DNA from: Caproiciproducens sp. CPB-2
GTDB taxonomy: Bacteria > Bacillota > Clostridia > Oscillospirales > Acutalibacteraceae
NCBI RefSeq assembly: GCF_036287215.1
Contig: NZ_CP142860.1
Location: 3,348,001-3,412,000 of the forward strand
Direction of reading: 5' to 3'
DNA: 64,000 nt
This document shows, one piece after another, positions 2,987-56,092 of this stretch. The notes under the pieces are model-generated. The model made no database searches. It saw only the letters and a program-made list of their open reading frames with translations, and was not told the DNA's origin. How positions within the stretch are numbered: the first letter of the stretch is position 1; the number at the start of each line of letters is the position of its first letter. The translations under genes and the position numbers were made by a program.

Positions 2987-2999
2987 GGAGGGCAGGAAA

Positions 3000-3500
3000 A
3001 TGAAATACACCCTTTCGATTTTAGTTGAAAACCAGCCCGGCGTCCTCTCAAAGGTGTCCGGCCTGTTTTCCCGCCGCGGCTTCAACATTGACAGCCTCGC
3101 CGTCGGCATCACCGAGGATCCCGCCATTTCCCGCATCACCATTGTGGTGAACGGCGACGAATATATTGTAGAACAGGTGGAAAAGCAGCTCAACAAGCTG
3201 ATTCCCGTCATCAAGGTCAAGGTGCTGCAGCCCGGCATGTTCATCAGCTGCGAGCTGTCGCTGATCAAGGTGAACTGTCAGACAAAGCAGCGCGCCGAAA
3301 TCATGAAGATCGTCGAGCTGATGCACGCCCAGATCGTGGACGTGGCCACCACCTCGCTGACCATCCAGCTGACGGACAACGACGAGCACACTCAGACGCT
3401 TATCAGCCTGTTAAAGCCCTACGGCATCAAGGAAATCGTCCGCGCGGGCACTCTGGCCATTGAAAAAGGCCCCACCACCGCCCGCAAACAGAACAGCTGA
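3000..3500 (+). CDS. ilvN: Acetolactate synthase, small (regulatory) subunit
   Basis: Regulatory partner of IlvB that stimulates activity and gives feedback inhibition by valine. It has 166 residues, the standard length. An ACT domain spans about residues 2-75 (YTLSILVENQPGVLSKVSGL, then SRRGFNIDSLAVG), followed by the C-terminal ALS_ss_C domain. The ATG at 3000 has GGGAGGGC 5-12 bases upstream, and the gene lies 13 bases after the ilvB stop. Translational coupling with ilvB is likely. Nothing unusual was seen. Confidence 0.95.
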   Translation: MKYTLSILVENQPGVLSKVSGLFSRRGFNIDSLAVGITEDPAISRITIVVNGDEYIVEQVEKQLNKLIPVIKVKVLQPGMFISCELSLIKVNCQTKQRAEIMKIVELMHAQIVDVATTSLTIQLTDNDEHTQTLISLLKPYGIKEIVRAGTLAIEKGPTTARKQNS

Positions 3501-4583
<1,083 letters not shown>

Positions 4584-4620
4584 TTTCACGATTTAAAACA
4601 TATAATCAAAAAGGTACTGA

Positions 4621-4694
4621 TTCCGCCGCATTTTTCCGGGGCATCTTACGATACGAAAGTCTGTTTCCGATGCCGCCCCGAAAAACCGGCGGAA
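4621..4694 (+). terminator. Long inverted repeat after ilvC
   Basis: The left arm reads TTCCGCCG, then TTTTTCCGGGGCATC. It pairs with GATGCCG-CCCCGAAAAA, then CGGCGGAA, and ATTTT follows. The arms are more than 20 bases with a 22-base loop. It most likely ends the ilv transcript. Its position immediately upstream of the next gene also fits an attenuator or RNA-stabilising hairpin. Confidence 0.6.
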
Positions 4695-4723
4695 TATTTT
4701 AACGAATGAAGGGAGCCATTGTT

Positions 4724-5485
4724 ATGTGGGACAGAGGGATTCTGAAATCCAATGCGAAAATCGCGCTGGGAGGGCGGTACTGGACCGCGTTCGGCGTGTC
4801 GCTTCTTGCCGCGGTTATTTCCGGCGGGTTTTCATGGTCTACAAGACGGTTCACGGTCAGCTTTGAGAACCTTCCGTGGAACGAAGGGATAACGTCCGTT
4901 GTGGCCGTGCTGTTAAGCCTGTCCGCAATCCTGATAGCCCTGATCGGCTTTCTTTATTATGTCTTCGTTTCTCTGCCGGTCTCCATCGGCGAAAGCCGGT
5001 ATTACGTGCGGAACCACTTCGGCGCGGCAGATTTCGGCACGCTGTTCAGCAGCTTCCGCTACGGCTACCTCAACAGCGCCGCCGCCATGCTCGTCACGGA
5101 AATCTTTATTTTCCTGTGGACGCTGCTGCTGATCATCCCCGGCATCATCAAACAGCTCGAATACTCCATGGTGCAGTATCTCCTTGCGGATAACCCCAGC
5201 CTGCCGGGCAGCCGGGCAAGGGAACTCAGCCGCATCCTGACAAACGGCGAAAAGGGCGCGATTTTTGTGCTGGGCCTTTCCTTCATCGGGTGGTACCTGC
5301 TCGGGGCCATCTGTTTCGGCGTGGGGATTTTCTTTGTGAATCCCTATTATCAGGCCACCATGGCGGAGCTTTATATCTTCCTGCGCGACCGCGCGATCCA
5401 GACCCATCAGATCGACCCGGCGGAGCTGGGGCTGGTTCCCCCGGCCGGACCGTATTACAATCCGGAAAATCCTCCCATCCTGTAA
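4724..5485 (+). CDS. DUF975 family integral membrane protein
   Basis: Uncharacterised membrane protein of the DUF975 family, 253 residues. The hallmark N-terminus is present (RGILKSNAKIALGGRYWTAF), followed by about four to five membrane segments, including LLIIPGIIKQLEYSMVQYLL, which resembles the conserved patch of this family. I chose ATG 4724 because GAAGGGAG lies 8 bases before it; an ATG at 4706 overlaps that ribosome binding site. Function is unknown. It follows the ilv operon after a long hairpin, so it is probably expressed separately or by readthrough. Confidence 0.8.
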   Translation: MWDRGILKSNAKIALGGRYWTAFGVSLLAAVISGGFSWSTRRFTVSFENLPWNEGITSVVAVLLSLSAILIALIGFLYYVFVSLPVSIGESRYYVRNHFGAADFGTLFSSFRYGYLNSAAAMLVTEIFIFLWTLLLIIPGIIKQLEYSMVQYLLADNPSLPGSRARELSRILTNGEKGAIFVLGLSFIGWYLLGAICFGVGIFFVNPYYQATMAELYIFLRDRAIQTHQIDPAELGLVPPAGPYYNPENPPIL

Positions 5486-5593
5486 AGCGTTACAGGGCGG
5501 GGAGATCGGATTCCTTTTATAACGCAAAAGACGGCGGACCGCGCCAGCCTGGGGGACTCAATCCCGGGGCGCGGGCCCGCCGCTTTTTTCCGC

Positions 5594-5812
5594 AAGGCAC
5601 AAAAAAACGCCGTACAGGAAAAATTTCCATATACAACGTCGTCAAAGTGCCGCGGACTGAAGATACCCCCCTGTACAAAATGAAAAACAGGCGGTATAAT
5701 AGTAACCGCAGAGCGCTGAGTATTCAGCTGTGTATGGAGCTTGGACTCCGTATGCAGGGCGGTTGGTATTCCCGTACCTTCCGCCTGCTTTGCACTTTTT
5801 ATTTGTGCCTTA
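5594..5812 (-). ncRNA. Structured RNA, copy A (paralogue of 36807-37027)
   Basis: About 219 nt. It is transcribed on the minus strand from a promoter whose -10 ends about 7 bases upstream of the RNA start. The 5' end AAGGCACAAA pairs with the 3' end TTTGTGCCTT. Inside are hairpins GGCGG-AA-GGUA...UACC-AA-CCGCC and CUGA...UCAG, a stem CCUGU...ACAGG, and a terminal stem-loop followed by seven U residues. Copy B keeps the same stems with different bases (for example CCUCU/AGAGG for CCUGU/ACAGG, and CCGA/UCGG for CUGA/UCAG). I cannot name the family; 6S-like and raiA-type RNAs are candidates, but the multi-hairpin fold is not canonical 6S. Confidence 0.75.
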
Positions 5813-5819
5813 CACGTAG

Positions 5820-5848
5820 ATTATAGCGCGTTTTTCAGGGATGCGCAA
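5820..5848 (-). promoter_or_regulatory. Sigma-A promoter of structured RNA copy A
   Basis: On the minus strand the -35 is TTGCGC (5848-5843) and the -10 is TATAAT (5825-5820), with a 17-bp spacer. Its placement puts transcription start at the first base of the end-pairing stem. Copy B has the matching promoter TTGCAC-17-TATAAT, and the spacer end ACGCGC is also conserved. Confidence 0.8.
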
Positions 5849-5883
5849 TATCAACCGCGAATATTTTCCAAAATTTGCAAATC

Positions 5884-5911
5884 GGGCCGCCATGTTTCGA
5901 CATGGCGGCCC
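5884..5911. terminator. Perfect hairpin between the chemotaxis gene and RNA copy A
   Basis: GGGCCGCCATG and CATGGCGGCCC form an 11-bp perfect stem with a 6-base loop. It lies 20 bases beyond the stop of the minus-strand chemoreceptor gene and upstream of the RNA promoter, so it most likely terminates the receptor transcript. Confidence 0.6.
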
Positions 5912-5932
5912 TTTCGTTCTGGGAAATGTCTT

Positions 5933-8050
5933 TCAGCTGTATTTTTCAACTACTGCGGGAAAGCTTTTAACGGATTCTTTAGGCTCCGGCGGGGTGACCG
6001 TCGGCGGGACGGCCTTCAGCGGGACGACCGCGCCGCTTTTTTTCGTCGCGCCCTCTCTCAGGCAGAACTTCGCCGCAAGCGCGCGCAGACGCCGGGCCTG
6101 TGCGGACAGGTCCTGGCTGACCGCCGCGTTTTCCTCCGAGGTTGCGGAATTCGTCTGTACTACCTGCGCGATCTGCTGAATCCCCTGCGTGACCTGCTCC
6201 ACGGCGGCGGCTTCGTCGCCGGTCGCCTCCGAAATTTCCGAAATCAGTCCGGCGGACTCGCTTGTCCGGGTCCTGATGTGCTGGAAGGACTCCGCGGTGG
6301 AGTTCGCGACCGTCATTCCGTTGTTGACCAGCGAAATCGTGTTCTCGATCAGCTTGGCGGTCTGGCCCGCGGCCTGGGCGCTCTTCCCGGCCAGATTCCG
6401 CACTTCGTCCGCGACAACGGAGAAGCCCTTGCCCGCCGCCCCGGCCCTTGCCGCTTCCACGGCGGCGTTCAGCGCCAGAATATTGGTCTGGAACGCGATG
6501 TCCTCGATCGTTTTGATGATCTTCCGGATTTCCGCCGAGGCCGAATGGATGTCGTTCATGGCGGACAGCATCTGTTCGATATCGCGGTTGCCCTTTTCCA
6601 CCGCCGTGGTGGATTCCTTCGCAATGGTACTGGCGACCGCCGCGTTTTTCGCGGTTTTCTGTATCTGGCCGGAAATTTCGGAAATGGTGGCGGAAAGCTG
6701 TTCCGTGGCGCCCGCCTGTTCCGAAGCGCCCTGCGAAAGCGCCGCCGCCCCGCTCGAAATCTGCTCCGAACGGAGGGAAACGGATTCCGCCGCGTGGTCA
6801 ATATCGGAAAACACCCCGTTCAGCGAATCGACGATCTGGTCAAGCGCGCTCCTGATCTCGGAGAAGTCGCCCAGATACTGCATCTGCGTCTTTACCGTCA
6901 GATCCCCTCTGGAAACTGCGTTCAGCACCTCGGAAATCTCCCCGATATACATCTGCAGGCTGCCGAGCGTATTTTCAAGCGCCCCGGCCACCTGACCGAC
7001 CTCGTCCTTTGTGTCGACCGTCAGCTTCACGGCGTCCTTGTTGCTGATGCCGATTTCCCCGTGCTCCATGTTGTTGGCCAGCGTCACGACCTGACCGAGC
7101 GGCTTTTTGACCCGCTTGCGGACGATCCTGCCCAAAATGACGGTGGCGATCACCATGACCACCAGCGCCGCGCCGATCGAAACGGCCACGGTCTGCATGG
7201 AGCGCTGTTCCGTCGCCGCAATGCTCTTCCCGGTAAACATCGCGCCGATCGCCTTTCCGTCAAATCCCAGAATCGGGACATAATTCACCATCATGGACGT
7301 ACCCATCACGTCCATTTTTCCCGTATAATTCTGCTTTTCGGTCAGGACCTTCCGCGCGACGGCCGCGTCCATTTTCGTTCCCGTCTGGCGCTTCTGATCC
7401 TTCATCAGGGTGGTGTTGACCCGCTCGTCCCCATAAAACACCGTGAAGTCACAGCCCGTGTACTGCTTGAGCTGGTCGATGACGTTGTGGTCCTCCAGCG
7501 ACTGTACGGTGGAAATCATGCCGATCAGGTTCCCGTACCGCTGCACCGGCGTGCCGCAGCAGATACCGAGCGTCTTGCCGGAAACCGCCTCGTTTACAAC
7601 CACGCTTTTCCCTTTCATGGCTTCCTGCACGTGATGGAGCTTTGAAAAGTCGGGAAGGTCAAAATCGGTGGTTGTGGAGTACAGCAGGTTTCCCCGCGCG
7701 TCCGTCAGAAAGGCATAGCTGATGTTGTAGGCCTTCACCCGGTTTTTCATGGATTCCACAATACTGTACTGGTTTCCGCCGGCCACCGCGTTCAAAAAAT
7801 CGGCGTCCTGGGACAGCTCCTGTCCCGCCTGCCTCAGGTTTGCCTCATAATTGGAAAGGATATTATCCAGCCCCTGCATGGCGGTTTGATTCTGCTCCTC
7901 GTAGGTATCCTCGAAAATCCAGCCCGTAAACAGGGAATTGATGGATACGACAACGGCCAGAGCAATCGCCAGCGTCCCGATAAAAAACACGGATAAGAGA
8001 GTACCCAAACTGTTTTTCCGAATTTTCCCTCTGCTTTTCAAAAAACTCAC
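5933..8050 (-). CDS. Methyl-accepting chemotaxis protein with Cache sensor
   Basis: Chemoreceptor of 705 residues that signals to CheA/CheW. Membrane segment 1 is at about residues 16-38. An extracytoplasmic Cache-type sensor follows (about 45-285, ending [19 protein letters not shown]), then membrane segment 2 (about 285-305), a HAMP linker and a long coiled-coil signalling domain. The hairpin tip is the family signature [21 protein letters not shown], followed by VADEVRNLA. No CheR-binding pentapeptide is seen at the C-terminus, which ends VVEKYS. No che genes are nearby. The neighbouring Cache/GGDEF protein suggests a local ligand-sensing pair, though the two have separate signals. Confidence 0.92.
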
Positions 8051-8227
8051 TCCTCAAATAAATTCAGGTCTGAGCCAGACATGTGCCGCAGTATCTTCCC
8101 CATTATAATTATCGGCAGGCACAACTGTTTTTTAATTTTTTGATGCAATTATAATTCACAATGTTTCCTTCTGTTTTTTGGTTATTCATCTAAATTTGTC
8201 ATGATAACAACATTGAAACTATGGATA

Positions 8228-8266
8228 ATATACAAATACCGCCCTGCCGGAAAGCATGGCGGTATC
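8228..8266 (-). terminator. Terminator of the diguanylate cyclase gene
   Basis: Read on the minus strand, ATACCGCC pairs with GGCGGTAT and the hairpin runs into TTTGTATAT, just past the stop codon at 8284. Confidence 0.5.
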
Positions 8267-8283
8267 TTCTGTTTGTGCGCCGC

Positions 8284-10362
8284 CTACAGCGCGGCCTGAA
8301 GGCCGCCTGCTTCGTACAGGCTGCACTTGTCTTTTCCGCTTTTCTTGGAACAGTATAGCGCCTCGTCCGCGTGGCGGTAAAGCTCCTCAAAGCATGTGCC
8401 GCCGTACGGGTAGAACGCTCCGCCCACGCTTGCCGAAATTTTATACATCTCGTCCTCGCCCGTATAGGCGCAGTGGAAAATTTCACAGATATCGTTCATC
8501 TTATCCCGGAGCAGGTCCGCCGAATCAATGTCCCTGATAAAAATAATAAACTCGTCGCCCCCGGTGCGGCCCACAATATCCGACGCGCGGAACAGCCGCT
8601 TGATGTCTGTGGAAACCTTTTTCAGGACCGCATCGCCGAAAATATGCCCGAGCGTGTCGTTGATATCCTTAAAATTGTCAATATCCACGATGATCAGGCC
8701 GTGAAGGGTATTTTTCTCCGATTTTTTCAGGCACTCCTCAATCATGGACTCGGTGGTGACCTTGTTGTAAAGCTGCGTCAGCAAATCCATCCTGGACCTG
8801 CTTTCCAGCTTCTGGATCATTTTCTTCTGGTGATCGGTGTCCACGATCAAGCCGATCGCGCGGTAAGGCTCCTTATTTTCGTCATACAGGATTTTGATGT
8901 TTACCGTGCACCAGATGTATTTGCCGTCGACGTTTTTCATCCGCACGTCGGTCGGACCGGGCTGGCCCCCGGCCCTGATCTTTCGGAAAAGCTGCGACAT
9001 GATCTCCTGGTCGGCGGGGTGGACCTGTTCAAAATTCGGGATATCGGAACCGGGCACCTGTGCCGCGGTGGAAAAACCAAATTTATTTGTCCAGTAGACG
9101 GTATGATAAATGTGGTTCTGACGGATGTCCCATTCAAAAACGACCTGATTGGTTTCTTCCATAATCAGCGCATACCGCGCCTCGCTGACCTTGAGCACGT
9201 CGGTGTCCTCCTTTATTTTTTCGATCAGATGGTTAAAAGCGGATGCCATTTCGGCAAACTCCCCTTTGTAACAGGCGGGCAGGCGGGTCTGGTAATCCCC
9301 TTTTTCCACCCTGACAAATTCCGCGGACATATCCCTGAGCGGGTTGAGAAAACGGTTGGCGGCTATGTAGGCGCAGCTGATCAGCGCTGCCGCCAGCACC
9401 AAAAGCGCCGCAAAATAAACCTTTAACATGCTCTGAAACGGACTCGCCAGCTCATCCGTCTCGACCGCGCTCAAAATAATCCAGCTTTTCCCGGCGACAC
9501 GGGAATAGTAGCCGAATTTTTCCATTCCGCCCGCCCAAAAGCGGATGACGCCGTTGGGGTTCTGGTCCAGGTCGATATTTTCAAGCTTTTTTCCGCTGAG
9601 ATCCCCTTCCAGCTTGATCTGGTCCGCGCTGTCCATCCGCTGGCCGACGCCCAGTATGTTTCCGCTGACAACGCTGCCCACGGAGTCCAGAATGACGGTC
9701 CGGCCCGTTTCCATAAAGGTCTGGCGGGTGATGAGGTCCAGATAAATCATGTCGATGGAGGACTGGATGGAGCCTTCGTAGACGCCGTCCTTATAAATCG
9801 GCACGGCAATCACGAAATAGTTCTGGCCGTCAATAAAATCCGGTTCGTGCATCCTGTCGGAAATATACAGCCCGTACGCCGGAACGGTCCGCATGTCCAC
9901 CTTGAGAAAGGACGGCTTTCCGATCAGCCGGCTGTCGTCGGACGCGATAATGACGCCTTTCCGGTTAATCAGGCTGGAACGCCTGACGAAATTCCCCTTG
10001 GAGTCCCCCTGCCCGTTGATGGTCTGTTTGTCGGTCATCGTCTTGAGGGTGTTCACCGTAATCGCCCGGTACTGCTCCAGATCCCTGTCCGGCGCCCCCG
10101 CGTTGGACGAAATCAGAAGCTCCTTCACCCCCGGCAGGTCGGAAGCCACTTCCAGCGCCATTTTCCGCTGGCTGAAAAACTGGTCCAGATTGTTGGCCGT
10201 CTGCATGGCGGTGGATTTCACGTTTGCCTGTAAAAGCTGCGAAGTGTTGCTCTGAAAGAAGAGAACGCTGAACACCATCACCAGAACCATCGGCAATATG
10301 GAAAAGACAGCCAGCAAAACAGTAAGATACTTCCTGATTCTCACCCGGCTGCCTTCTTTCAT
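8284..10362 (-). CDS. Diguanylate cyclase: Cache, HAMP, PAS, GGDEF
   Basis: Membrane enzyme predicted to make cyclic di-GMP from two GTP. The order is membrane segment 1 (about residues 9-30), an extracytoplasmic dCache-like sensor, membrane segment 2 (VYFAALLVLAAALISCAYI, about 310-330), HAMP, PAS (about 395-520) and GGDEF (about 530-690). The active site reads GRTGGDEFIIF with an intact product-inhibition site RASD just before it, so it is probably active and feedback-regulated. The start is uncertain. ATG 10362 lacks a good ribosome binding site, while an in-frame GTG at 10344 has GAAGG upstream, and a TTG at 10374 is also possible. Confidence 0.9.
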   Translation of the reverse strand: MKEGSRVRIRKYLTVLLAVFSILPMVLVMVFSVLFFQSNTSQLLQANVKSTAMQTANNLDQFFSQRKMALEVASDLPGVKELLISSNAGAPDRDLEQYRAITVNTLKTMTDKQTINGQGDSKGNFVRRSSLINRKGVIIASDDSRLIGKPSFLKVDMRTVPAYGLYISDRMHEPDFIDGQNYFVIAVPIYKDGVYEGSIQSSIDMIYLDLITRQTFMETGRTVILDSVGSVVSGNILGVGQRMDSADQIKLEGDLSGKKLENIDLDQNPNGVIRFWAGGMEKFGYYSRVAGKSWIILSAVETDELASPFQSMLKVYFAALLVLAAALISCAYIAANRFLNPLRDMSAEFVRVEKGDYQTRLPACYKGEFAEMASAFNHLIEKIKEDTDVLKVSEARYALIMEETNQVVFEWDIRQNHIYHTVYWTNKFGFSTAAQVPGSDIPNFEQVHPADQEIMSQLFRKIRAGGQPGPTDVRMKNVDGKYIWCTVNIKILYDENKEPYRAIGLIVDTDHQKKMIQKLESRSRMDLLTQLYNKVTTESMIEECLKKSEKNTLHGLIIVDIDNFKDINDTLGHIFGDAVLKKVSTDIKRLFRASDIVGRTGGDEFIIFIRDIDSADLLRDKMNDICEIFHCAYTGEDEMYKISASVGGAFYPYGGTCFEELYRHADEALYCSKKSGKDKCSLYEAGGLQAAL

Positions 10363-10761
10363 TGTGGATTTCAAATGTAAAATTCTGTAAATTTATTATA
10401 ACAGAAAATCCTTTTAATTCAATAGAATAATTTGGTACATGCAAATAATCATATAAATCTTTTGAAATTATTTTTATTTAAATTTAACAGATTTTTTGTG
10501 ACCAACTAAAAAAGCAACAAAAACAGACAGAATCCGCTGTTTACCGAAACGGACCGGGTTTTTTGTTGAGCGGGCTTTCTCTTCCGGCCCGGGCGGAAAA
10601 GGGCATAACGAAAGGCGCCGTTTCCCCCAAAAAACGGCGCCTGATGGGGAGGTCTATTGAAAGTGTGGTGTTGAAAGCGTTATCATTGCGGCATTTCTTA
10701 TGAATGTCTTCCCGTAGGGATGGATGTTACAGATTGACAAGCCCTTTCAGGAGACTCAAAT
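10363..10761. other. Non-coding gap with a strong hairpin
   Basis: No gene was seen. GGCGCCGTTT (10614-10623) and AACGGCGCC (10633-10641) form a strong hairpin followed, on the minus strand, by TTTCG, so it may stop minus-strand transcription. A weaker hairpin with a run of T lies near 10530-10565. The left 120 bases are AT-rich and probably hold the diguanylate cyclase promoter. Confidence 0.5.
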
Positions 10762-10977
10762 TCACTTGTTTGCTTTTATTTTGTTAATGAATCCTACCGC
10801 AAATATCAAAATGCCGATAATAAGATAGGAAGCAATAAACCCATTTAACAAAGAAACATATTCCCCTGACAGATTCCCTTTCAGGCTGCCCAGTATATTT
10901 ACCGAAAAATAACCCAGAGGGGTACTGAAAAAAATAATTATTAACCCCAAAAAGAACTGCAAACCATACTTTTTCAT
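10762..10977 (-). CDS. Small two-segment membrane protein, unknown
   Basis: A 71-residue protein with two hydrophobic segments (FFLGLIIIFFSTPLGYFSVNI and ASYLIIGILIFAVGFI) and a lysine-rich tail. I chose the ATG at 10977 because GACGAGGAGAAAAC precedes it; a longer frame to 11088 has no such signal. No family was recognised. It opens, on its right side, the island of small envelope proteins. Confidence 0.6.
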   Translation of the reverse strand: MKKYGLQFFLGLIIIFFSTPLGYFSVNILGSLKGNLSGEYVSLLNGFIASYLIIGILIFAVGFINKIKANK

Positions 10978-11133
10978 GTTTTCTCCTCGTCTAAGAAACC
11001 CGGCTGGGCCAATAAGCAACCGGAACTGCTGAATCCTTTTTTTGAAACATCCGATTCTGAATCCGCCGGCAGATGAAGGTATCGGCACCTGCCGGCAGCT
11101 CCTTCGCCTAAGTCATCCGATCATTGAAAAAGC

Positions 11134-11559
11134 TTATCCGCAGTAATCCTGGCAGGAAACGCTGATGCTTTCGACTGTGCCGTTGCGGTAAACTTTCGCT
11201 TTTATTTCGACTTCATAGGTATATCCGCTGGAAACATAATAGGAATTGTCGAAATAGAACGACTCGCCGCTGGTACTTAGCCCCGTCCAGGCTTTGACGG
11301 TTGTTTTGGTCGACCCGACCACCCGTTTCAGGTAAACGGTCGCGGTGATTTTAGTCGTGCCGCTTTTCCCCTCCACGATTGCGGAACAGTCCGCCCGCGT
11401 GCCGGAAAAGTCGAGGTAGGCCGCCGCGCTGTCGGTATTGGTGTACATAATATGCATATCGGAATCAGAGGAAGCGGGTTTTACCGTAGCAAACGCGGGG
11501 ACATTCACCGTAATCAGCAGAACAAGGGCAGTGACAAGGGCCATCAGTTTTGTTTTCAT
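11134..11559 (-). CDS. Small secreted protein with ECF-type promoter
   Basis: A 141-residue protein with a clear signal peptide (MKTKLMALVTALVLLITVNVP, cleavage near AFA). The mature part is rich in Ser, Thr and Tyr with alternating beta-strand character (TTKITATVYLKRVVGSTK, YTYEVEIKAKVYRNG) and two Cys near the C-terminus (CQDYC). It resembles small secreted DUF6147-type proteins, but this is only a weak impression. GAAGGTAATCTTT lies before the ATG. The ECF-like promoter block at 11601-11630 is about 42 bases upstream, so it is a likely target of the sigma factor encoded at 13888-14445. Confidence 0.7.
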   Translation of the reverse strand: MKTKLMALVTALVLLITVNVPAFATVKPASSDSDMHIMYTNTDSAAAYLDFSGTRADCSAIVEGKSGTTKITATVYLKRVVGSTKTTVKAWTGLSTSGESFYFDNSYYVSSGYTYEVEIKAKVYRNGTVESISVSCQDYCG

Positions 11560-11600
11560 AAAGATTACCTTCCTTTTCCATTTATTTTTCCTTCTACTAC

Positions 11601-11630
11601 ATTAACGACGGACCCCCCTGTTTTGTTACA
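11601..11630 (-). promoter_or_regulatory. ECF-type promoter block, copy 1
   Basis: On the minus strand the block reads TGTAACAAAAC, AGGGGGG, TCCGTCGTTAAT. TGTAAC fits an ECF -35 element and CGTC an ECF -10. The same block stands at 17099-17128 and 19141-19170, always on the minus strand and at the 5' side of a secreted or membrane-protein reading frame. A related sequence is inside the sigma gene at 14224-14253. Confidence 0.6.
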
Positions 11631-11660
11631 CTTTTTCCCAAACTTTTTTAAATTTATTTT

Positions 11661-11719
11661 TGCTGCTCCGCACTTTCGGCGATCCGGATCCGTTCGTCCT
11701 TTGAAATCGTGGAGCTGAG
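11661..11719 (-). pseudogene. 3' fragment of a DUF4367 anti-sigma-like gene
   Basis: These 59 bases differ at only about one position from 13165-13223, the 3' end of the DUF4367 gene. The fragment sits immediately upstream of the ECF promoter block of the secreted protein, in the same orientation. It looks like the scar of a recombination that once placed this target gene directly behind a sigma/anti-sigma operon. Confidence 0.75.
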
Positions 11720-11771
11720 TGTATCCAATTGGCTTTAAAGAGATTATCACTTTTTATTGATATAGGTCAGT

Positions 11772-11969
11772 TCATAAATGATCCTTTTCAATAGACTTAT
11801 AATGAAAGAGAACGATTATCAAAGAAATAATACAACTTCCAATCATCTCCCTTATAAAAAAAGCGGTAGAAAAAAGGGCAGGGTCTGATGCAAAAACAAG
11901 TACGAGGAAAAAGACAAACCAATTCAGAAAGAATTTTTTCCAGTTAATTAATTTTAATTTTTCTTTCAT
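11772..11969 (-). CDS. Small membrane protein, unknown
   Basis: A 65-residue protein with a basic N-terminus (MKEKLKLINWKKF) and two hydrophobic stretches (FLNWFVFFLVLVFA and MIGSCIISLIIVLF). AAAGGTGATTTC precedes the ATG. No family was recognised. It is AT-rich compared with core genes of the window, like most of this island. Confidence 0.55.
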   Translation of the reverse strand: MKEKLKLINWKKFFLNWFVFFLVLVFASDPALFSTAFFIREMIGSCIISLIIVLFHYKSIEKDHL

Positions 11970-49409: not shown

Positions 49410-49862
49410 TTGAAAAAACTGATAAAATTATGCGCCGCGGTCCTTGCGGCGGCGGCCCTGTTCGCGTTTGCGGGCTGTTCGGCGCGCACGCCGGTTTCGG
49501 CGGACGAATTTAAAAAGCAGGCGGAAGCGGCCGGGTTTACGGTGACGGATTCCTCCGCGAATGCAAACGCGGAAAAATACCTGTCCGCGGTCAAAAGCGA
49601 GACCGGCACGGAGCTGGCGTTCCTTGCCTTCTCCTCCGAAAGCGCCGCGACGGAGATGTACACGAACCTCAAGTCGGGCATTGCCTCCGGCACGGACGGC
49701 GACGCGCAGAACGTCGACTCCTCCTCCTATAATAAATACACCCTTGTAAACGGCGAGCTGAACCACATTCTGGTGAGAATGAATAAAACCATTGTGTACG
49801 GCAAGGCGACCACAACCTATAAAAGCCAGATCGAGGACTTTTTCAGCGCGATCAAATACTGA
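49410..49862 (+). CDS. Small lipoprotein, unknown
   Basis: A 150-residue protein with a lipoprotein signal peptide (KLCAAVLAAAALFAFAGC, lipobox FAGC at residues 20-23). The mature domain contains SADEFKKQAEAAGFTVTDSS, LAFLAFSSESAATEMYTNLK and a C-terminal YKSQIEDFFSAIKY. It starts at TTG with ATGGAGGTTTTACA upstream. It stands alone between a promoter and a terminator. The fold resembles small PsbP/DUF-type substrate-free lipoproteins, but no family was recognised. Confidence 0.8.
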   Translation: MKKLIKLCAAVLAAAALFAFAGCSARTPVSADEFKKQAEAAGFTVTDSSANANAEKYLSAVKSETGTELAFLAFSSESAATEMYTNLKSGIASGTDGDAQNVDSSSYNKYTLVNGELNHILVRMNKTIVYGKATTTYKSQIEDFFSAIKY

Positions 49863-49944: not shown

Positions 49945-50535
49945 TTAAAACAGCTTTCCGCCGGTAAAGCCCGCGAAGGCCATGGACAGGATCCCGACGT
50001 AGATCAGCACGGCGGGCAGCCCGCCGAACGCTTTGGGCATATCCGGGTTCCTGCAGATTTCCGGCGTATGGGAAAAAACGAGGGCGGCCAGAAAGAACGC
50101 CGCGCCCGTACCGAGGGCAAAGCCGACGGCGTCCGGCAAAGCGAGCTTCAGGCTTTTCAGCACGTACGGCATGGAGAGCACGACCGTATTCATTGCCGCC
50201 GGGGCCAGAATCTGCCCGTATTTCCTGTAAAACCGCGCGGAAAAGGTTTTCAGGACAAACGCCGCGATCAGATAGGCGGCCGCGCTGCAAAAAGCCAGCA
50301 GGGCCGGCCGCAGGACAACCAGCGTCTGGCTGCCCGCAAGCAGCGGGCTGAGAAAATAAGCCGCGGCCATGGAAATCAGCGTAAAAACCGTCACGAAGGC
50401 AGAATACATTCCGAGCATTTTCGGCCTGCGCCCCGCGCGGAGCACGCGGCTGAACCCAATGCCCCCGGCAAACAGGATATTTTCCGTGCTGACCGCCAGA
50501 AGCGCGGCCAAAAGCATCTGTACAAAGGTGTTCAT
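49945..50535 (-). CDS. RnfA/NqrE-like membrane protein lacking the Fe-S cysteines
   Basis: A 196-residue protein with six membrane segments, the size and pattern of RnfA, ending in the family-like AFGGLPAVLIYVGILSMAFAGFTGG. In known RnfA/NqrE two cysteines ligate an intramembrane 2Fe-2S cluster, in GICPFLGVS and TTNCAVLG. Here the aligned places read FAGGIGFSRVL and AMNTVVLS, so both cysteines are gone. It is the last gene of the operon; its start overlaps the RnfE-like stop by 4 bases. It probably pairs with the RnfE-like protein in the membrane, but the redox role is doubtful. Confidence 0.85.
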   Translation of the reverse strand: MNTFVQMLLAALLAVSTENILFAGGIGFSRVLRAGRRPKMLGMYSAFVTVFTLISMAAAYFLSPLLAGSQTLVVLRPALLAFCSAAAYLIAAFVLKTFSARFYRKYGQILAPAAMNTVVLSMPYVLKSLKLALPDAVGFALGTGAAFFLAALVFSHTPEICRNPDMPKAFGGLPAVLIYVGILSMAFAGFTGGKLF

Positions 50536-51179
50536 ATGCGGGGCACCCTCCTTCTGCCGCCTTTTTTACCGCGCTTTTCATTGACCCACTGGACGAACGC
50601 GGCGAAAAACCCCAGCAGGAGGAAGCCGAAAAACGGCAGGGAAACGCCCGCGTCGGCGGTGCCGTACACCCCCATGTTGGTGTGCCACAGGCTTCCCTTG
50701 AGCCAGAGCTCCCGGACGGCGGCGCTCAGGCAGACGACCGCGGCAAAGCCGGCGGAACACCCCAGAGCGTCCGCGGCCACCGCCCAGCCGATGTGGGTGG
50801 GCGCGTAGTCGTTCGCGCGGGAAAGGATCATGGAGTTGCCGATCATCAGAGCGGCGAACATGCCCAGGGCGGTCACCGACCCGGGGAGCAGCTTTTCCGT
50901 CAGCCACGCGGCGGGCAGATACAGGACCGCGGAAACCGTCAGGACCAGCCCCGGACGGATCCACAGGGGCACCATTTCCCCCACCAGGCAGAACAAAAGG
51001 GACAGCGGCAGGGTCAGGAAAAGGAACAGGAGGGACAGCTCAACGGCGTTCCTCATATTGTAGCCGCCCGCAACAACGGGGTAAAGCCCGAGCGCGCCCA
51101 CCAGAACGGGGTTTTTGAAAAACGCTCCGTTCAAAAAGATCGTGCCCGTTTCGCGCAGCAGGGTTTTCTTATTCGTCAT
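50532..51179 (-). CDS. RnfE/NqrD-like membrane protein lacking the Fe-S cysteines
   Basis: A 215-residue membrane protein. The N-terminal part FKNPVLVGALGLYPVVAGGY aligns with the RnfE pattern ENPVLVLVLGMCPTLAVTT, with Cys replaced by Tyr. The second site LGMFAALMIGNSMILSRAND aligns with LGIFIPLIVVNCIILARAE, with Cys replaced by Ser. The tail is very basic (NEKRGKKGGRRRVPRI). It overlaps the RnfD-like gene by 11 bases upstream and the RnfA-like gene by 4 downstream. rnfG, which normally stands between D and E, is absent. Confidence 0.85.
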   Translation of the reverse strand: MTNKKTLLRETGTIFLNGAFFKNPVLVGALGLYPVVAGGYNMRNAVELSLLFLFLTLPLSLLFCLVGEMVPLWIRPGLVLTVSAVLYLPAAWLTEKLLPGSVTALGMFAALMIGNSMILSRANDYAPTHIGWAVAADALGCSAGFAAVVCLSAAVRELWLKGSLWHTNMGVYGTADAGVSLPFFGFLLLGFFAAFVQWVNEKRGKKGGRRRVPRI

Positions 51180-52146
51180 ACGGTTCCTCCCCCAGTCTCA
51201 GCGCCCCCAGCAGCAGAGAATCAATCTGCGGGGTTGCGGCGTTGGCAATGATGACGGCGAAGACGGCCCCCTGTTCAAACGCGCCGAAGCGGCGGAACAT
51301 CATCACCAGAAAACCGGCAAAGGCGCCGTAAAAAATGCGTCCCGGGATCCTGTGCGGGGCGGTCACCGGGTCGGTGACCATGAATACGGAACAGAAAAGC
51401 AGGGACCCCGACATCAGCTCGTATTTCACAGAGGTCAGCGGGCCGCACGCGATTCTGGGGAAAAACGCCGCGATCAGCACGGCGGCGGCCAGAAACGAAG
51501 CCGTGATCTCCCACCTTGCCGTGCGTTTCAGGAACAGGAAAAGCCCGCAGGCGCAGATCACCAGGATTCCGGTCGTTCCCAGCGGGCCGGGAAACACGCC
51601 CCACAGCATGTCGAGCGGCAGGATGCCCGGCTTCAGCCCGCTTTTTAAAACGGCGGCGGGCGAAGGGGCCAGCACCGCGGCAAAGTCCCGATACGGGGGA
51701 ATCGTCTGGGCGGCCGCCGGGTCGAAATAGGAAAACATCTCCTTCGGCCAGCACAGCACGGCAAAGGCGACGCCCGACGCCGCCGGATTAAACGGCGTAT
51801 GACCGATGGAGCCGAACGGCATCTTCGCGGCCAGAATCGCAAAGGCGGCCGCCGCGCAGGGCAGCCACAGGGGGGCGTTGAGCGGCATCAGCATGGTGAT
51901 CATCATCCCCGTGACAAGGGAGGACCCGTCGGAAAGGCTGATGCTCTTTGTCTGGATCAGGCTGAACGCAATCTCACAGACCGCACAGGCCAGCATGGTC
52001 ACGCCCGCCGTCACGAGCGGGCGCGGCCCGTAGTGCACCACGGGCAGGACGAGCAGCATGGCAAGCGCGAACAGCACGTCGCGCATCATGGAGGCTACGG
52101 AGGCTTCGCTTTTTACAAAAGGCGCTCTCGCTTCATTCAACGTCAA
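51169..52146 (-). CDS. RnfD-like membrane protein without flavinylation motif
   Basis: A 325-residue protein with about nine membrane segments. The RnfD/NqrB family is shown by SLSDGSSLVTGMMITMLMPL then NAPLWLPCAAAAFAILAAKM (about 70-110), FNPAASGVAFAVLCWP, and the late CSVFMVTDPVTAPHRIPGRI then FYGAFAGF. Known RnfD carries FMN covalently on Thr of an S/T-G-A-T motif after the NPA segment. The equivalent stretch here (PYRDFAAVLAPSPAAVLKSG) has none. It overlaps the RnfC-like gene by 4 bases and the RnfE-like gene by 11. Confidence 0.87.
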   Translation of the reverse strand: MTLNEARAPFVKSEASVASMMRDVLFALAMLLVLPVVHYGPRPLVTAGVTMLACAVCEIAFSLIQTKSISLSDGSSLVTGMMITMLMPLNAPLWLPCAAAAFAILAAKMPFGSIGHTPFNPAASGVAFAVLCWPKEMFSYFDPAAAQTIPPYRDFAAVLAPSPAAVLKSGLKPGILPLDMLWGVFPGPLGTTGILVICACGLFLFLKRTARWEITASFLAAAVLIAAFFPRIACGPLTSVKYELMSGSLLFCSVFMVTDPVTAPHRIPGRIFYGAFAGFLVMMFRRFGAFEQGAVFAVIIANAATPQIDSLLLGALRLGEEPYDE

Positions 52147-53171
52147 TCGAAGTCACCGCTTTTCTTATAGGCCGCCGCCTTCGAAACGGCGGCGCGCAGA
52201 TCGATTCCGGAAGGGCAGGCGACGGCGCAGGCCGAGCAGCCGATGCATTTCTGCACGTTCAGCATCCTGACAGGGTCCGGGCTGGCGCTTTGTATCTCCC
52301 TTAAAACTTTCCACGGCACAATGCCGCGCGGGCACGCCCGCTCGCATTTCTCACAGCCGATGCAGGGATAGGTCTTGTTTCTGGGGGGTTTTCGCAGCGC
52401 GATCACACAGCGCGTCGCCGCCGTGACCGGCTCGGACAGGTCGGTGACGGCCTTCCCCGTAACGGAAGAACCGGTGATGACCACCTTTGTCTTTTCGCTC
52501 GCTTCGCAGGCGTCCAGCAGAAATTTCAGCGGCGTGCCGATACGCACCCGCAGGTTCCGCCAGTGCTCCACCCCGTCGCCCGCCACCGTCGCCACGGTAA
52601 AGCTCTGGGGCTCGTTTTCGTCCACGGCGGCGGTCAGCGCCAGAAGCGCCTGCGCGCCGACGTACGCGGCGTTTTTCCCGGAGGCGTACAGCTTCCGTTT
52701 CAAGAGCACCCGCGCCGGGTACCGTTCGCCCGCAACGATCAGATCCGCCTGCGGGTTGATTTTCCGAATTGCGCGCGCCTCCCGGGAAGCCGCCACGGCG
52801 ATTTTATTCTCCGCCGCACCGCACGCCCGCGCGGCAAGCACCAGCCCGGCGATGATCGCGTGCGTATTTTCCCGCAGCACCGCCATGGCGCTCGTCGTGC
52901 AGGGATCCTCGTCAAAGCAGCAGGCCACAAGCATATCCGGCTTCAACCGGCGCAGCCGCCTCAGCTTCTTGTCCAGCGCCGCACCGTCGAACTCGTCGAC
53001 GATCCCGGCGGCCTCGGCGGCGGCGATAATCCCGCCGGCGTCAAGCTTCCCCTTCCGCGGCGGAAGCGGCCTCGGCTCCTCAATGCCCTCCGGAACGGGA
53101 AGATCCTTTATTTTATGTCTCAGCGAAGCTGATTTTTGCTGCTCCAGCTTTACGCCGCGCTGCAGTATCAC
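52143..53171 (-). CDS. RnfC-like protein with two 4Fe-4S motifs, N-terminally reduced
   Basis: 342 residues against about 440 for RnfC. The two ferredoxin-type motifs CIGCEKCERACPRGIVPWKV and CIGCSACAVACPSGIDLRAA are intact (about 273-330), and the preceding SLBB-like part (SSVTGKAVTDLSEPVTAATR) is recognisable. The N-terminal barrel and the glycine-rich GGAGFPTHVK and ECEPY segments that form the FMN/NADH site in RnfC are missing; the aligned place reads CCFDEDPC. It starts at GTG, 18 bases after rpe. It probably binds two clusters at the membrane but should not bind NADH as RnfC does. Confidence 0.82.
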   Translation of the reverse strand: MILQRGVKLEQQKSASLRHKIKDLPVPEGIEEPRPLPPRKGKLDAGGIIAAAEAAGIVDEFDGAALDKKLRRLRRLKPDMLVACCFDEDPCTTSAMAVLRENTHAIIAGLVLAARACGAAENKIAVAASREARAIRKINPQADLIVAGERYPARVLLKRKLYASGKNAAYVGAQALLALTAAVDENEPQSFTVATVAGDGVEHWRNLRVRIGTPLKFLLDACEASEKTKVVITGSSVTGKAVTDLSEPVTAATRCVIALRKPPRNKTYPCIGCEKCERACPRGIVPWKVLREIQSASPDPVRMLNVQKCIGCSACAVACPSGIDLRAAVSKAAAYKKSGDFD

Positions 53172-53189: not shown

Positions 53190-53834
53190 CTATTTTTGCC
53201 CGGCCGCCGCTTTCAGGTCCCGGATCGCCTGTGCGGCATTCTCCGCCTTGAATACGCTTGTCCCCGCCACGCACACATCCGCGCCCGCCTGTGCGGCCGT
53301 CCGGATGGTGGAGGGATTGATTCCGCCGTCCACCTGAACCAGCAGCTCCGGCCTGCGGGCTTTCAGCGTCCGGATCTTTTCCATCATGTCCTCCATAAAG
53401 CGCTGGCCGCCGAACCCCGGCTCCACCGTCATGACAAGCACCATGTACAGCTTGTCCAGATACGGGAACAGTGTTTCTGCGGGAGTGCCCGGCTTTACGG
53501 ACAGCGCCGGCTTCGCGCCGCCCGCGCGGATGGTTTTCAGCGTTTTTTCCGTGTCGGATTTCGATTCTATATGAAAAGTAATAATATCCGCTCCGGCGTC
53601 TAAAAAATCAGGGACATACCGGAGCGGTTCATCGATCATCAGATGCACGTCAAAAGGTTTTTCCGTAAATCCGCGCACGGCCCTGATCACCGGCGCACCG
53701 AAAGTCAGGTTTGGCACAAAATGCCCATCCATTACATCCAGATGGATCCAGTCCGCGCCGCAGAGATCCATTCTCCTTACTTCATTTCCAAGCTGTGAAA
53801 AATCCGAGGAAAGCACCGAAGGCGCTATTAGCAT
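53190..53834 (-). CDS. rpe: Ribulose-phosphate 3-epimerase
   Basis: Interconverts ribulose 5-phosphate and xylulose 5-phosphate. The 214 residues form a TIM barrel. Motifs are IAPSVLSSDFSQLGNEV (residues 3-19), DWIHLDVMDGHFVPNLTFG (metal His/Asp), FDVHLMIDEP, MTVEPGFGGQRFM and QVDGGINPSTI. It stands 18 bases ahead of the RnfC-like gene on the same strand, so it may lead that operon, a curious pairing. Confidence 0.94.
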   Translation of the reverse strand: MLIAPSVLSSDFSQLGNEVRRMDLCGADWIHLDVMDGHFVPNLTFGAPVIRAVRGFTEKPFDVHLMIDEPLRYVPDFLDAGADIITFHIESKSDTEKTLKTIRAGGAKPALSVKPGTPAETLFPYLDKLYMVLVMTVEPGFGGQRFMEDMMEKIRTLKARRPELLVQVDGGINPSTIRTAAQAGADVCVAGTSVFKAENAAQAIRDLKAAAGQK

Positions 53835-54871: not shown

Positions 54872-56092
54872 TTACAGAACATAAATATTCATCCTGCGGT
54901 TTCCAAACTGCCGGCACTGCGCGACCGTGTTGAAGTACAGGTCGGCGACAATGCGCCCGTCCATTACCCCGCCGCCGGTATCCGCCGCAATGGCGTAACC
55001 GTAAACGACCTTGCCGTCCGGGGAACAGATATAAAGCCTGCTGCCGTAGGGGATGATCTTCGGATTGACCGCGACCAGGCCGAACGCCGCCGCCCGCCCG
55101 GTCGAGGTTCTTCCCCCGCCGGTGTAGCCGGTGCATTTTCCGGAAACGCATTTCTTATAGGAAACGGTCTTTCCGTTCTGGTCGGTGATCGTTCCGTTGC
55201 CGTTGATCACGGCGGCGCCCGCCGCTTTTTTCTTTGTTCCGACCAGGGTCACCTGATCGACCGGCTGTTCCAGCACGGTGGCGCTGACGACCTCGCTGGA
55301 GGCAACCTTCCCTTCCACCAGCTTCTGGCGGGTAACCACGGACTGGCTGCCGGCTTTGCCGGAAGTCTTGACCTTGATCTGCCCTTTATAAAGGCCGGCG
55401 CTGTTTTCGTTTTTGTTTTTGAACGCGACCGGCTGGATGCTGGTGATTTCCTGATAGGTCACCCTTGAGACGGAAATCTTCATTCCCTCGCCGACCGGGG
55501 CGTCCTTCTCCACGTTGACAATGTCCTCCGCGCCGAGCGAAACCCCGGCTTGCTCAAGCGCCTGGGCGACCGTGCCTTCGCCGACGAGCACGGATTTCGT
55601 CTGCCCGTCCGCGGTCATGCTGACGGTAAAATGTCTTTTCACCTGAATGTCCGTTTCCTGCGTAACCTTTTCAGCCGGCTTCGGAGTAACCACATCGTTT
55701 GCTTTCAGCGTTACCGCCGCCGTGGAAAGCGCCTTTGCCACCGTATCGCCGTAATGCAGCGTAACGGTTTTTACGTCGCCGTCCGCGCTGACATCCGCCT
55801 GAATCGCGGTTCTCACAGTGATGAGGATCTTCCCGTCCGGGGTCGGTTCGGGGCTGCGTTCAACAATATCGTTTTCGCCGGGCTTGACATTTGCCGCGGC
55901 AAGAATTTCATCCGTCCCATCCCTGTACAGCTGTACGGATCTCTTTTCTCCGTTATAATCGACCACTGCGTTGCGCGTTACCGCCGCCACCGTGATCACG
56001 GAACTGACCGTAATCACAATCATCATAGCCAGAGCAGCTGCTCTTTTCATCGAGGTTTGCAGCCAGGCCGTATTTCGTGTGAAAAATTGCAT
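54872..56092 (-). CDS. G5/DUF348 and 3D-domain cell-wall protein (YabE/Rpf-like)
   Basis: Secreted or membrane-anchored protein of 406 residues. The N-terminal membrane segment is AALAMMIVITVSSVITVAA. Three DUF348 repeats follow (about 43-85, 98-140, 150-200: VQLYRDGTDEILAAANVKPG, TVTLHYGDTVAKALSTAAVT, HFTVSMTADGQTKSVLVGEG). Then comes a G5 domain (about 205-280) and a C-terminal 3D domain with VNPKIIPYGSRLYI, GYAIAADTGGGVMDGRIVAD and a final IYVL. 3D domains are transglycosylase-like, with catalytic Asp residues. A consensus promoter and a structured leader of about 90 nt precede it. Confidence 0.9.
   Translation of the reverse strand: MQFFTRNTAWLQTSMKRAAALAMMIVITVSSVITVAAVTRNAVVDYNGEKRSVQLYRDGTDEILAAANVKPGENDIVERSPEPTPDGKILITVRTAIQADVSADGDVKTVTLHYGDTVAKALSTAAVTLKANDVVTPKPAEKVTQETDIQVKRHFTVSMTADGQTKSVLVGEGTVAQALEQAGVSLGAEDIVNVEKDAPVGEGMKISVSRVTYQEITSIQPVAFKNKNENSAGLYKGQIKVKTSGKAGSQSVVTRQKLVEGKVASSEVVSATVLEQPVDQVTLVGTKKKAAGAAVINGNGTITDQNGKTVSYKKCVSGKCTGYTGGGRTSTGRAAAFGLVAVNPKIIPYGSRLYICSPDGKVVYGYAIAADTGGGVMDGRIVADLYFNTVAQCRQFGNRRMNIYVL

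Follow-up and report, generated by a model that had tools for sequence, protein, structure and literature searches.

The C-D-E-A locus and its gene content

The stretch of DNA analyzed here, 64,000 nucleotides from Caproiciproducens sp. CPB-2 (referred to as the window; C1:3348001-3412000 of a genome assembled into one contig of 3,446,181 bases, with a completeness of 98.43), carries at 49945-53171 on the minus strand a block of four genes encoding RnfC-, RnfD-, RnfE- and RnfA-like proteins. The block is located downstream of rpe and is of C-D-E-A order; all frames are open and overlapping, by 4 bp between C and D, 11 bp between D and E, and 4 bp between E and A. The features are as follows:

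53190..53834, minus strand, rpe, ribulose-phosphate 3-epimerase, 18 bp upstream of the C start, a conserved neighbour
52143..53171, minus strand, RnfC-like protein, 342 residues, GTG start, Fer4 family matches (Pfam)
51169..52146, minus strand, RnfD-like membrane protein, 325 residues, PF03116, 248.9 bits
50532..51179, minus strand, RnfE-like membrane protein, 215 residues, PF02508, 77.6 bits
49945..50535, minus strand, RnfA-like membrane protein, 196 residues, PF02508, 53.2 bits

The Pfam gathering cut-offs are 23.8 for PF02508 and 27.7 for PF03116; the A, E and D proteins all score above them, E higher than A, and PF03116 is the sole above-cut-off domain in the RnfD-like protein. In the NCBIfam comparison, none of the four proteins reached the cut-off of its Rnf namesake (57.3 vs 229.3 for rnfA, 57.8 vs 213.4 for rnfE, 182.8 vs 207.05 for rnfD and 114.7 vs 245.95 for rnfC). 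A sequence-only reading of the window had proposed an Rnf-like operon of four overlapping genes that lacks rnfB and rnfG. The open frames, the overlaps and the Pfam matches support the four genes; as to the missing ones, neither rnfB nor rnfG is present in the gene content of the locus or adjacent to it in this single-contig genome, the second finding by which the reading could have been overturned. No FMN_bind gene was found at the locus. A complete, canonical rnfCDGEAB operon, for which the same reading had recommended a search, is located in the same genome at C1:2205015-2209954, ∼1.19 Mb from the C-D-E-A block, and the genome encodes two ApbE proteins and one short ApbE match. Relatives of the A protein are named ‘Rnf-Nqr domain containing protein’ or ‘electron transport complex protein RnfA’ in the databases; the closest named one is from Caproiciproducens sp. 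R1 (96%), and by its named relatives the window falls within Caproiciproducens (Acutalibacteraceae) or beside it.

RnfA and RnfE have lost the ligand set of the intramembrane cluster

Residues were mapped using the A. woodii Rnf numbering (PMC11889175) and PDB chain rows, and each named letter was checked at its number by script. All residue counts refer to distinct rows, window included and locus L054 (see below) left out, with n = 92 for A, 97 for D and E, and 81 for C. The [2Fe-2S] cluster is liganded by Cys25 and Cys113 of RnfA and by Cys25 and Cys108 of RnfE; in the window these are Ser29 and Thr117 of RnfA and Tyr33 and Ser116 of RnfE, in line with the earlier claim that both proteins lack the cluster Cys residues. 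A25 is Cys in 0/92 rows and E108 in 0/97, whereas A113 and E25 are Cys in 24/92 and 26/97, respectively. Among the 92 distinct complexes, 45 have no Cys at the four positions, 23 have only E25, 23 have only A113 and one has both; more than two were never observed. The losses therefore vary by lineage, and no member would be able to hold the A/E cluster in the known way.

Relocated ligands were considered and rejected. Around A25, a window of 4 columns to either side contains no Cys in any of the 92 rows; within 4 columns of E108 one is present in 28/97 E rows, including most of the window's genus, where it lies two residues earlier (ICNS or VCNS; IGNS in the window), and the E rows with a nearby Cys have no partner set in A. 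The alignment thus gives no relocated Cys set, the finding by which the sequence-only reading proposed that it could be overturned.

Different from the cluster ligands, several residues of the ion path are retained. The Na+ ligand Asn112 of A. woodii RnfA corresponds to Asn116 in the window and is conserved in 84/92 rows; in RnfE, the gate residue Leu103 is conserved in 83/97 and Arg67 in 71/97. The RnfB-contact residues of RnfA are scattered, Arg154 being retained in 20/92 rows and Glu158 in 15/92.

RnfD lacks the flavinylation motif and keeps the riboflavin ligands

The flavinylated Thr156 corresponds to Ser162 in the window RnfD, and its context is AP[S]P, compared to the canonical TTA[T]P. 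At this acceptor column, Ser is found in 69/97 rows and Thr in 6/97. The ApbE-type context [ST]xA[ST] is present in 6/105 rows, compared to 12/16 canonical or reference rows. With the motif scored in sequence alone, the window RnfD is without it, as previously noted. The canonical RnfD of the host genome (L035 6356-7309) also carries Ser instead of Thr at the site, in the context TTA[S]P.

The ligands of the free riboflavin are retained in the window RnfD, as Asn120 and Asp259 (Asn123 and Asp249 of A. woodii). Across the rows, Asp249 is conserved in 86/97 and Asn123 in 84/97, the latter count being biased by the pattern [FV][NV]PAAAGxAF, which was used for fetching 80 of the loci and allows only Asn or Val at this position. 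The sequence-only reading had described a loss of the Rnf redox path. This holds for the cluster Cys residues, the flavinylation motif and the FMN/NADH loop of RnfC; the riboflavin site of RnfD, which it overlooked, is not lost.

RnfC keeps both [4Fe-4S] motifs and has a rebuilt loop

Both CxxCxxCxxxC motifs are intact in the window RnfC (Cys270, 273, 276 and 280; Cys309, 312, 315 and 319). The two [4Fe-4S] motifs are present in 87/88 RnfC rows, and each of the eight Cys in 80-81 of the 81 distinct C proteins. The FMN/NADH loop GGxGFP is replaced by D59xxD62 in the window and was found in 0/88 rows; two of its Gly residues are changed to Asp in 76/81 and 70/81 proteins. ECEPY reads DEDPC (residues 87-91) in the window, and the three ECE positions are acidic in 76, 67 and 66 of 81. 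The loss of GGAGFPTHVK and ECEPY and the retention of the two cluster motifs had all been seen correctly. In addition, the segment matching residues 45-115 of canonical RnfC is missing in the window and is largely missing in 48/88 rows, one of which is a fragment. Two more RnfC-related matches are present in the host genome (G000:C1:2667950-2668918 and 2862062-2862976; 104.1 and 93.7 bits with the C profile), near neither rnf locus.

The D-E-A core persists in lineages without RnfC

C is absent from the locus in 17/105 D rows. Two of these are contig edges (L108 and L151) and were dropped, leaving 15 rows, among which L050 and L171 lie on the same contig. When the C-less genomes were searched whole, the only near-full-length RnfC was found to share a contig with the canonical operon (9/9). 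One plasmid-labelled record of Subdoligranulum variabile carries rpe-D-E-A, with no C. The C-D-E-A set described by the sequence-only reading thus holds for the window; that C was also lost in some relatives had escaped it.

Asn123 of RnfD is replaced by Val or Ser in 12/15 C-less rows, whereas it is Asn in 86/88 rows with C; the three C-less rows that still have it are L153, L161 and L162. On the tree, the joint loss of C and Asn123 amounts to 1 independent pair on starred branches and 3 on all branches. The C-less loci differ from the C-bearing ones in RnfE as well: E has a long tail (67-495 residues) in 11/15 of the former, and the maximum among the latter is 68. The tails of 129-495 residues in C-less L047, L050, L060, L062 and L135 are charged and, by eye, of low complexity, and four E proteins scanned from C-less loci gave no further Pfam domain above cut-off. 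A tail of 290 residues is also found on 1/15 canonical E proteins.

Distribution and phylogeny of the stripped system

To assess occurrence in the order, 247 genomes with a completeness of 90% or more (host included) were searched, an A protein scoring at least 128 bits with the family profile being counted as present. By this cut, which is empirical and may miss weak members, the A protein was found in 39/247 genomes of the order and in 2/398 of the phylum, namely that of the window and another from the same family. Gene order was read in 17 of the 39. All of these carry the stripped set, whether or not C is included, and four are of the L054 type; five loci that score 127 bits or less (L191, L192, L193, L196 and L197) are complete rnfCDGEAB operons. 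Within the window's genus, the locus is present in 9/10 other genomes, once cut at a contig end, and the tenth genome is 85% complete. In named genomes, 147 relatives were retrieved with the D alignment, and the 80 best-scoring were used (named loci L094-L173). Among these 80 are Caproiciproducens, Caproicibacter, Anaeromassilibacillus, Faecalispora, Acetanaerobacterium, Negativibacillus, Angelakisella, Merdimmobilis and many metagenome-assembled genomes, and the top named locus is from C. faecalis.

For the trees, D rows of more than 360 residues were cut to the last 345 and C rows to the last 440-445, and long-branched rows were retained. In the D tree of 114 rows, 97/98 stripped rows fall on one branch, with a Shimodaira–Hasegawa approximate likelihood ratio test (SH-aLRT) support of 100; in a more careful D tree of 67 rows, 45/46 do so at 100/100. 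The exception is L054 in both trees. The D proteins of the Cys-less, motif-less loci, for which the sequence-only reading had recommended a tree, therefore form one clade, with L054 outside.

L054 belongs to family f7, together with L198, L199 and L200. These loci are of C-D-E-A-DUF4015 arrangement and are stripped likewise: the cluster ligands are replaced by Arg and Val in A and by Phe and Gly in E, the acceptor context of D is TAA[N]P (AAA[N]P in L200) and GGxGFP is absent; like the main clade, they retain the Fe-S Cys and the riboflavin ligands. A complete rnfCDGEAB-DUF4015 is present in L202 (the same as L197), which has the same genus code as the L054 type, and in L201 of the same family. 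L054 groups with the complete L197 at 100/99 in the 67-row D tree, and its D protein is 64% identical to that of L197 and 34% to that of the window; three stripped f7 rows group with L202 at an SH-aLRT of 98. These groupings suggest that a second, independent stripping likely took place in f7. On the other side, one origin was not rejected by the approximately unbiased test (p 0.083), L054 joined the stripped clade in the first D tree at a weak support of 61, and in the C tree the stripped f7 rows fall between the two groups.

We also counted PF02508 copies in 38 genome handles, two pairs of which are the same genome. Four copies are present in 29, and nine have two, those of this system: G003 (85% complete), G195, the four f7 genomes and the genomes of L106, L109 and L112. 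No FMN_bind match was found in 6 of these 9 single-system genomes, so the system cannot depend on RnfG everywhere.

The locus is under purifying selection

Compared to the nearest relative (L036), the ratio of nonsynonymous to synonymous substitution rates (dN/dS) is 0.125 for C, 0.103 for D, 0.156 for E and 0.092 for A, and 0.145 for the neighboring rpe. Against L037 and L042 the values range from 0.085 to 0.34, the top one belonging to A in L042, a comparison that is nearly saturated at synonymous sites. The purifying selection seen against the nearest relative, together with the new conserved Asp motif of RnfC, which is unlike a product of decay, indicates that C-D-E-A is not a decaying locus. 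Purifying selection, the presence in many genera, the single clade and the loss of A25 and E108 throughout support the proposal of the sequence-only reading of a complex that was repurposed and did not decay, whether its core is non-redox or its electron path is reduced or different.

What the stripped complex may do

The defining features of Rnf were tested and are not found here, and we therefore consider the family as an Rnf derivative rather than an Rnf complex. Judged by sequence, what has been lost is the ferredoxin side (RnfB and the A/E ligands), the extracytoplasmic side (RnfG and the RnfD motif) and the NADH/FMN loop of RnfC; RnfC still has its [4Fe-4S] motifs and RnfD its riboflavin ligands, and the A-E-D membrane scaffold is likewise retained. 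The U-shaped electron path of Rnf cannot run without RnfB, the A/E cluster and RnfG.

The reading that we put forward, at about even confidence, is that of an Rnf core, maintained and repurposed, whose cytosolic path is short and whose A/E module lacks the cluster; it would be redox-gated or redox-sensing and would not act as a ferredoxin:NAD oxidoreductase. C, D, E and A would assemble as in Rnf. Electrons would be exchanged between a cytosolic one-electron carrier, the RnfC clusters and a riboflavin in the cytosol-facing pocket of RnfD, and this short RnfC-RnfD path would no longer span the membrane in the Rnf U shape. The A/E pair, with part of the Na+ ligand and gate positions and no cluster, may serve as an ion conduit or gate, which would most likely make the whole complex a redox-gated or redox-sensing membrane device. 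Since the D-E-A core persists in lineages without RnfC, its basic job may be independent of the RnfC electron path. More broadly, we tentatively suggest, as something possible though not probable, that the core has been freed from transmembrane electron transfer for ion movement or transport, redox-gated or, in the RnfC-less lineages, non-redox, and that the stripping to C-D-E-A occurred twice in one order.

Several observations count against the redox-gated core. Glu115 of RnfE, the partner of Arg67, is retained in just 24/97 rows and the gate residue Leu108 of RnfA in 13/92, and the putative conduction or gating by A/E is read from such residues. The third RnfB-contact position of RnfA, Lys32, is still basic in 60/92 rows, which speaks against loss of that surface. 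The Asn123 counts carry the bias described above, and the link between C and Asn123 is read from a tree in which C changes three times, which is too few events for a test. It can also be argued that the evidence pulls in two directions: the retained clusters of C and riboflavin ligands of D speak for electron transfer, whereas the C-less loci speak for its dispensability.

Those C-less loci would suit a core that is non-redox in all members, with D-E-A acting as a transporter, channel or scaffold and the RnfC clusters being regulatory or structural. We regard this as a possibility of lower standing, since the conservation of eight RnfC Cys and of the D riboflavin ligands wherever C is present is hard to explain without electron transfer, and since Asn123 is kept in the three C-less rows named above. 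Transmembrane export, in which electrons would leave RnfC, pass RnfD and reach an acceptor outside via a still flavinylated Ser or via a diffusible carrier or quinone, draws on the predominance of Ser over Thr at the acceptor column, on the Ser in the host's own canonical RnfD and on the encoded ApbE. It appears unlikely to us, given that the [ST]xA[ST] context is as rare as described and that most of the genomes with only this system gave no match to an FMN_bind protein. The 29 genome handles with a second A/E pair would permit a hybrid, in which C-D-E-A uses RnfB and RnfG of the same cell's canonical operon. We consider it very improbable: the ligands of the cluster that links RnfB to RnfG are lost, and nine of the 38 handles have no second A/E pair, of which six are the ones without FMN_bind. 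The motif losses in A/E, D and C could finally be those of a decaying rnf duplicate, a view that is largely refuted by the intact overlapping frames, a dN/dS of 0.09-0.16 against the nearest relative, the occurrence in many genera and the new Asp motif, and to which we assign next to no probability.

Comparison with known systems

Compared to Rnf (RnfABCDGE, ferredoxin:NAD+ oxidoreductase; A. woodii 9eri, C. tetanomorphum 7zc6 and A. vinelandii 8ahx), the stripped system lacks RnfB, RnfG, the A/E ligand set, the RnfD motif, the FMN/NADH loop and part of the N-terminal region of RnfC, and it forms a clade of its own; it shares with Rnf the two [4Fe-4S] motifs in RnfC and the residues that bind riboflavin in RnfD. 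Na+-NQR (NqrABCDEF) is related through the homologues NqrB, NqrD and NqrE, and NqrA is a precedent for an RnfC homologue that lost its cofactors (PMC11889175). Different from Na+-NQR, the stripped RnfC retains its Fe-S motifs, no NqrC-like gene is present at the locus and the A/E ligands are lost; C and D are nearer to RnfC and RnfD in sequence and structure. The NQR/RNF-like two-gene systems (PMC8238504, PMC11334425) pair an FMN_bind protein with an RnfD domain that is fused to a PF00175 NAD-binding domain. Like the stripped system, they are partial Rnf/Nqr derivatives with an RnfD-like domain that lacks the flavinylation site; compared to them, the stripped system has C, E and A, its D has no PF00175 fusion and its locus has no FMN_bind gene.

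Among the literature matches listed (titles and abstract openings, with most subscription journals outside the scope), no description of a C-D-E-A system of this kind was found. Only four Rnf subunit genes were reported, before a turn to the Ech complex, for the chain-elongating strain BL-6, which clusters with Clostridium jeddahense (PMC7764203). As the genome of Faecalispora jeddahensis (L109) has only the two PF02508 copies of the stripped system, the four genes of BL-6 are probably the same system.

How electron flow is coupled to ion movement in Rnf and Nqr is still debated. The buried A/E cluster has been described as the gate of Na+ pumping (PMC11889175). The stripped loci offer a large natural set of complexes that retained the A/E/D scaffold and dropped the cluster, and sometimes the RnfC branch too, and they separate the redox needs of the scaffold from what it needs for something else. 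That many related bacteria of guts and reactors have kept the stripped version suggests a membrane job different from that of the Rnf pump. The homology label ‘electron transport complex subunit’ is unsafe for C-D-E-A-type genes, nor should their presence be taken to mean that gut and chain-elongating bacteria conserve energy by Rnf.

Genomic slot and neighboring genes

rpe is present in 71/76 named loci with an A gene; the five without it are on contigs whose start lies within or immediately ahead of C or D. In L065 (G039; 2662-11959), from another family of the same order, rpe, a complete rnfCDGEAB and DUF4015 occupy one slot, an arrangement that could be the source from which the stripped locus arose. 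With rpe preceding complete rnfCDGEAB-DUF4015 there, we tentatively suggest that the slot of the stripped locus is an old rnf one, the canonical operon of such genomes being the other copy. DUF4015 (PF13200, glycosidase-like) lies behind A in 36/68 named loci with room, e.g. L049:9171-10451. As a specific partner it was rejected, being also found behind canonical rnfB in 4/16 canonical loci and in L201 and L202, with no match in the host genome; it may be an old and general neighbor of Rnf, not specific to the stripped system.

A site for the NADH-sensing regulator Rex is predicted before rpe in Caproicibacterium lactatifermentans (PMC9600882). Rex control is unsupported in our loci: the best match in the window has 10/14 bases of the consensus, the same as the best one before the canonical rnfC used for comparison, and the best of 70 other loci has 11. 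A gene for a MecA-like adaptor (mecA) lies on the opposite strand between rpe and D in 40/71 named loci that have both of these genes, e.g. L109:6083-6673. Upstream of rpe, the window encodes a DUF348/G5/3D-domain protein (54872-56092, minus strand). On the other side, a small lipoprotein-like gene (49410-49862, plus strand) converges on the A gene, and similar small proteins recur behind the locus in 12 named loci.

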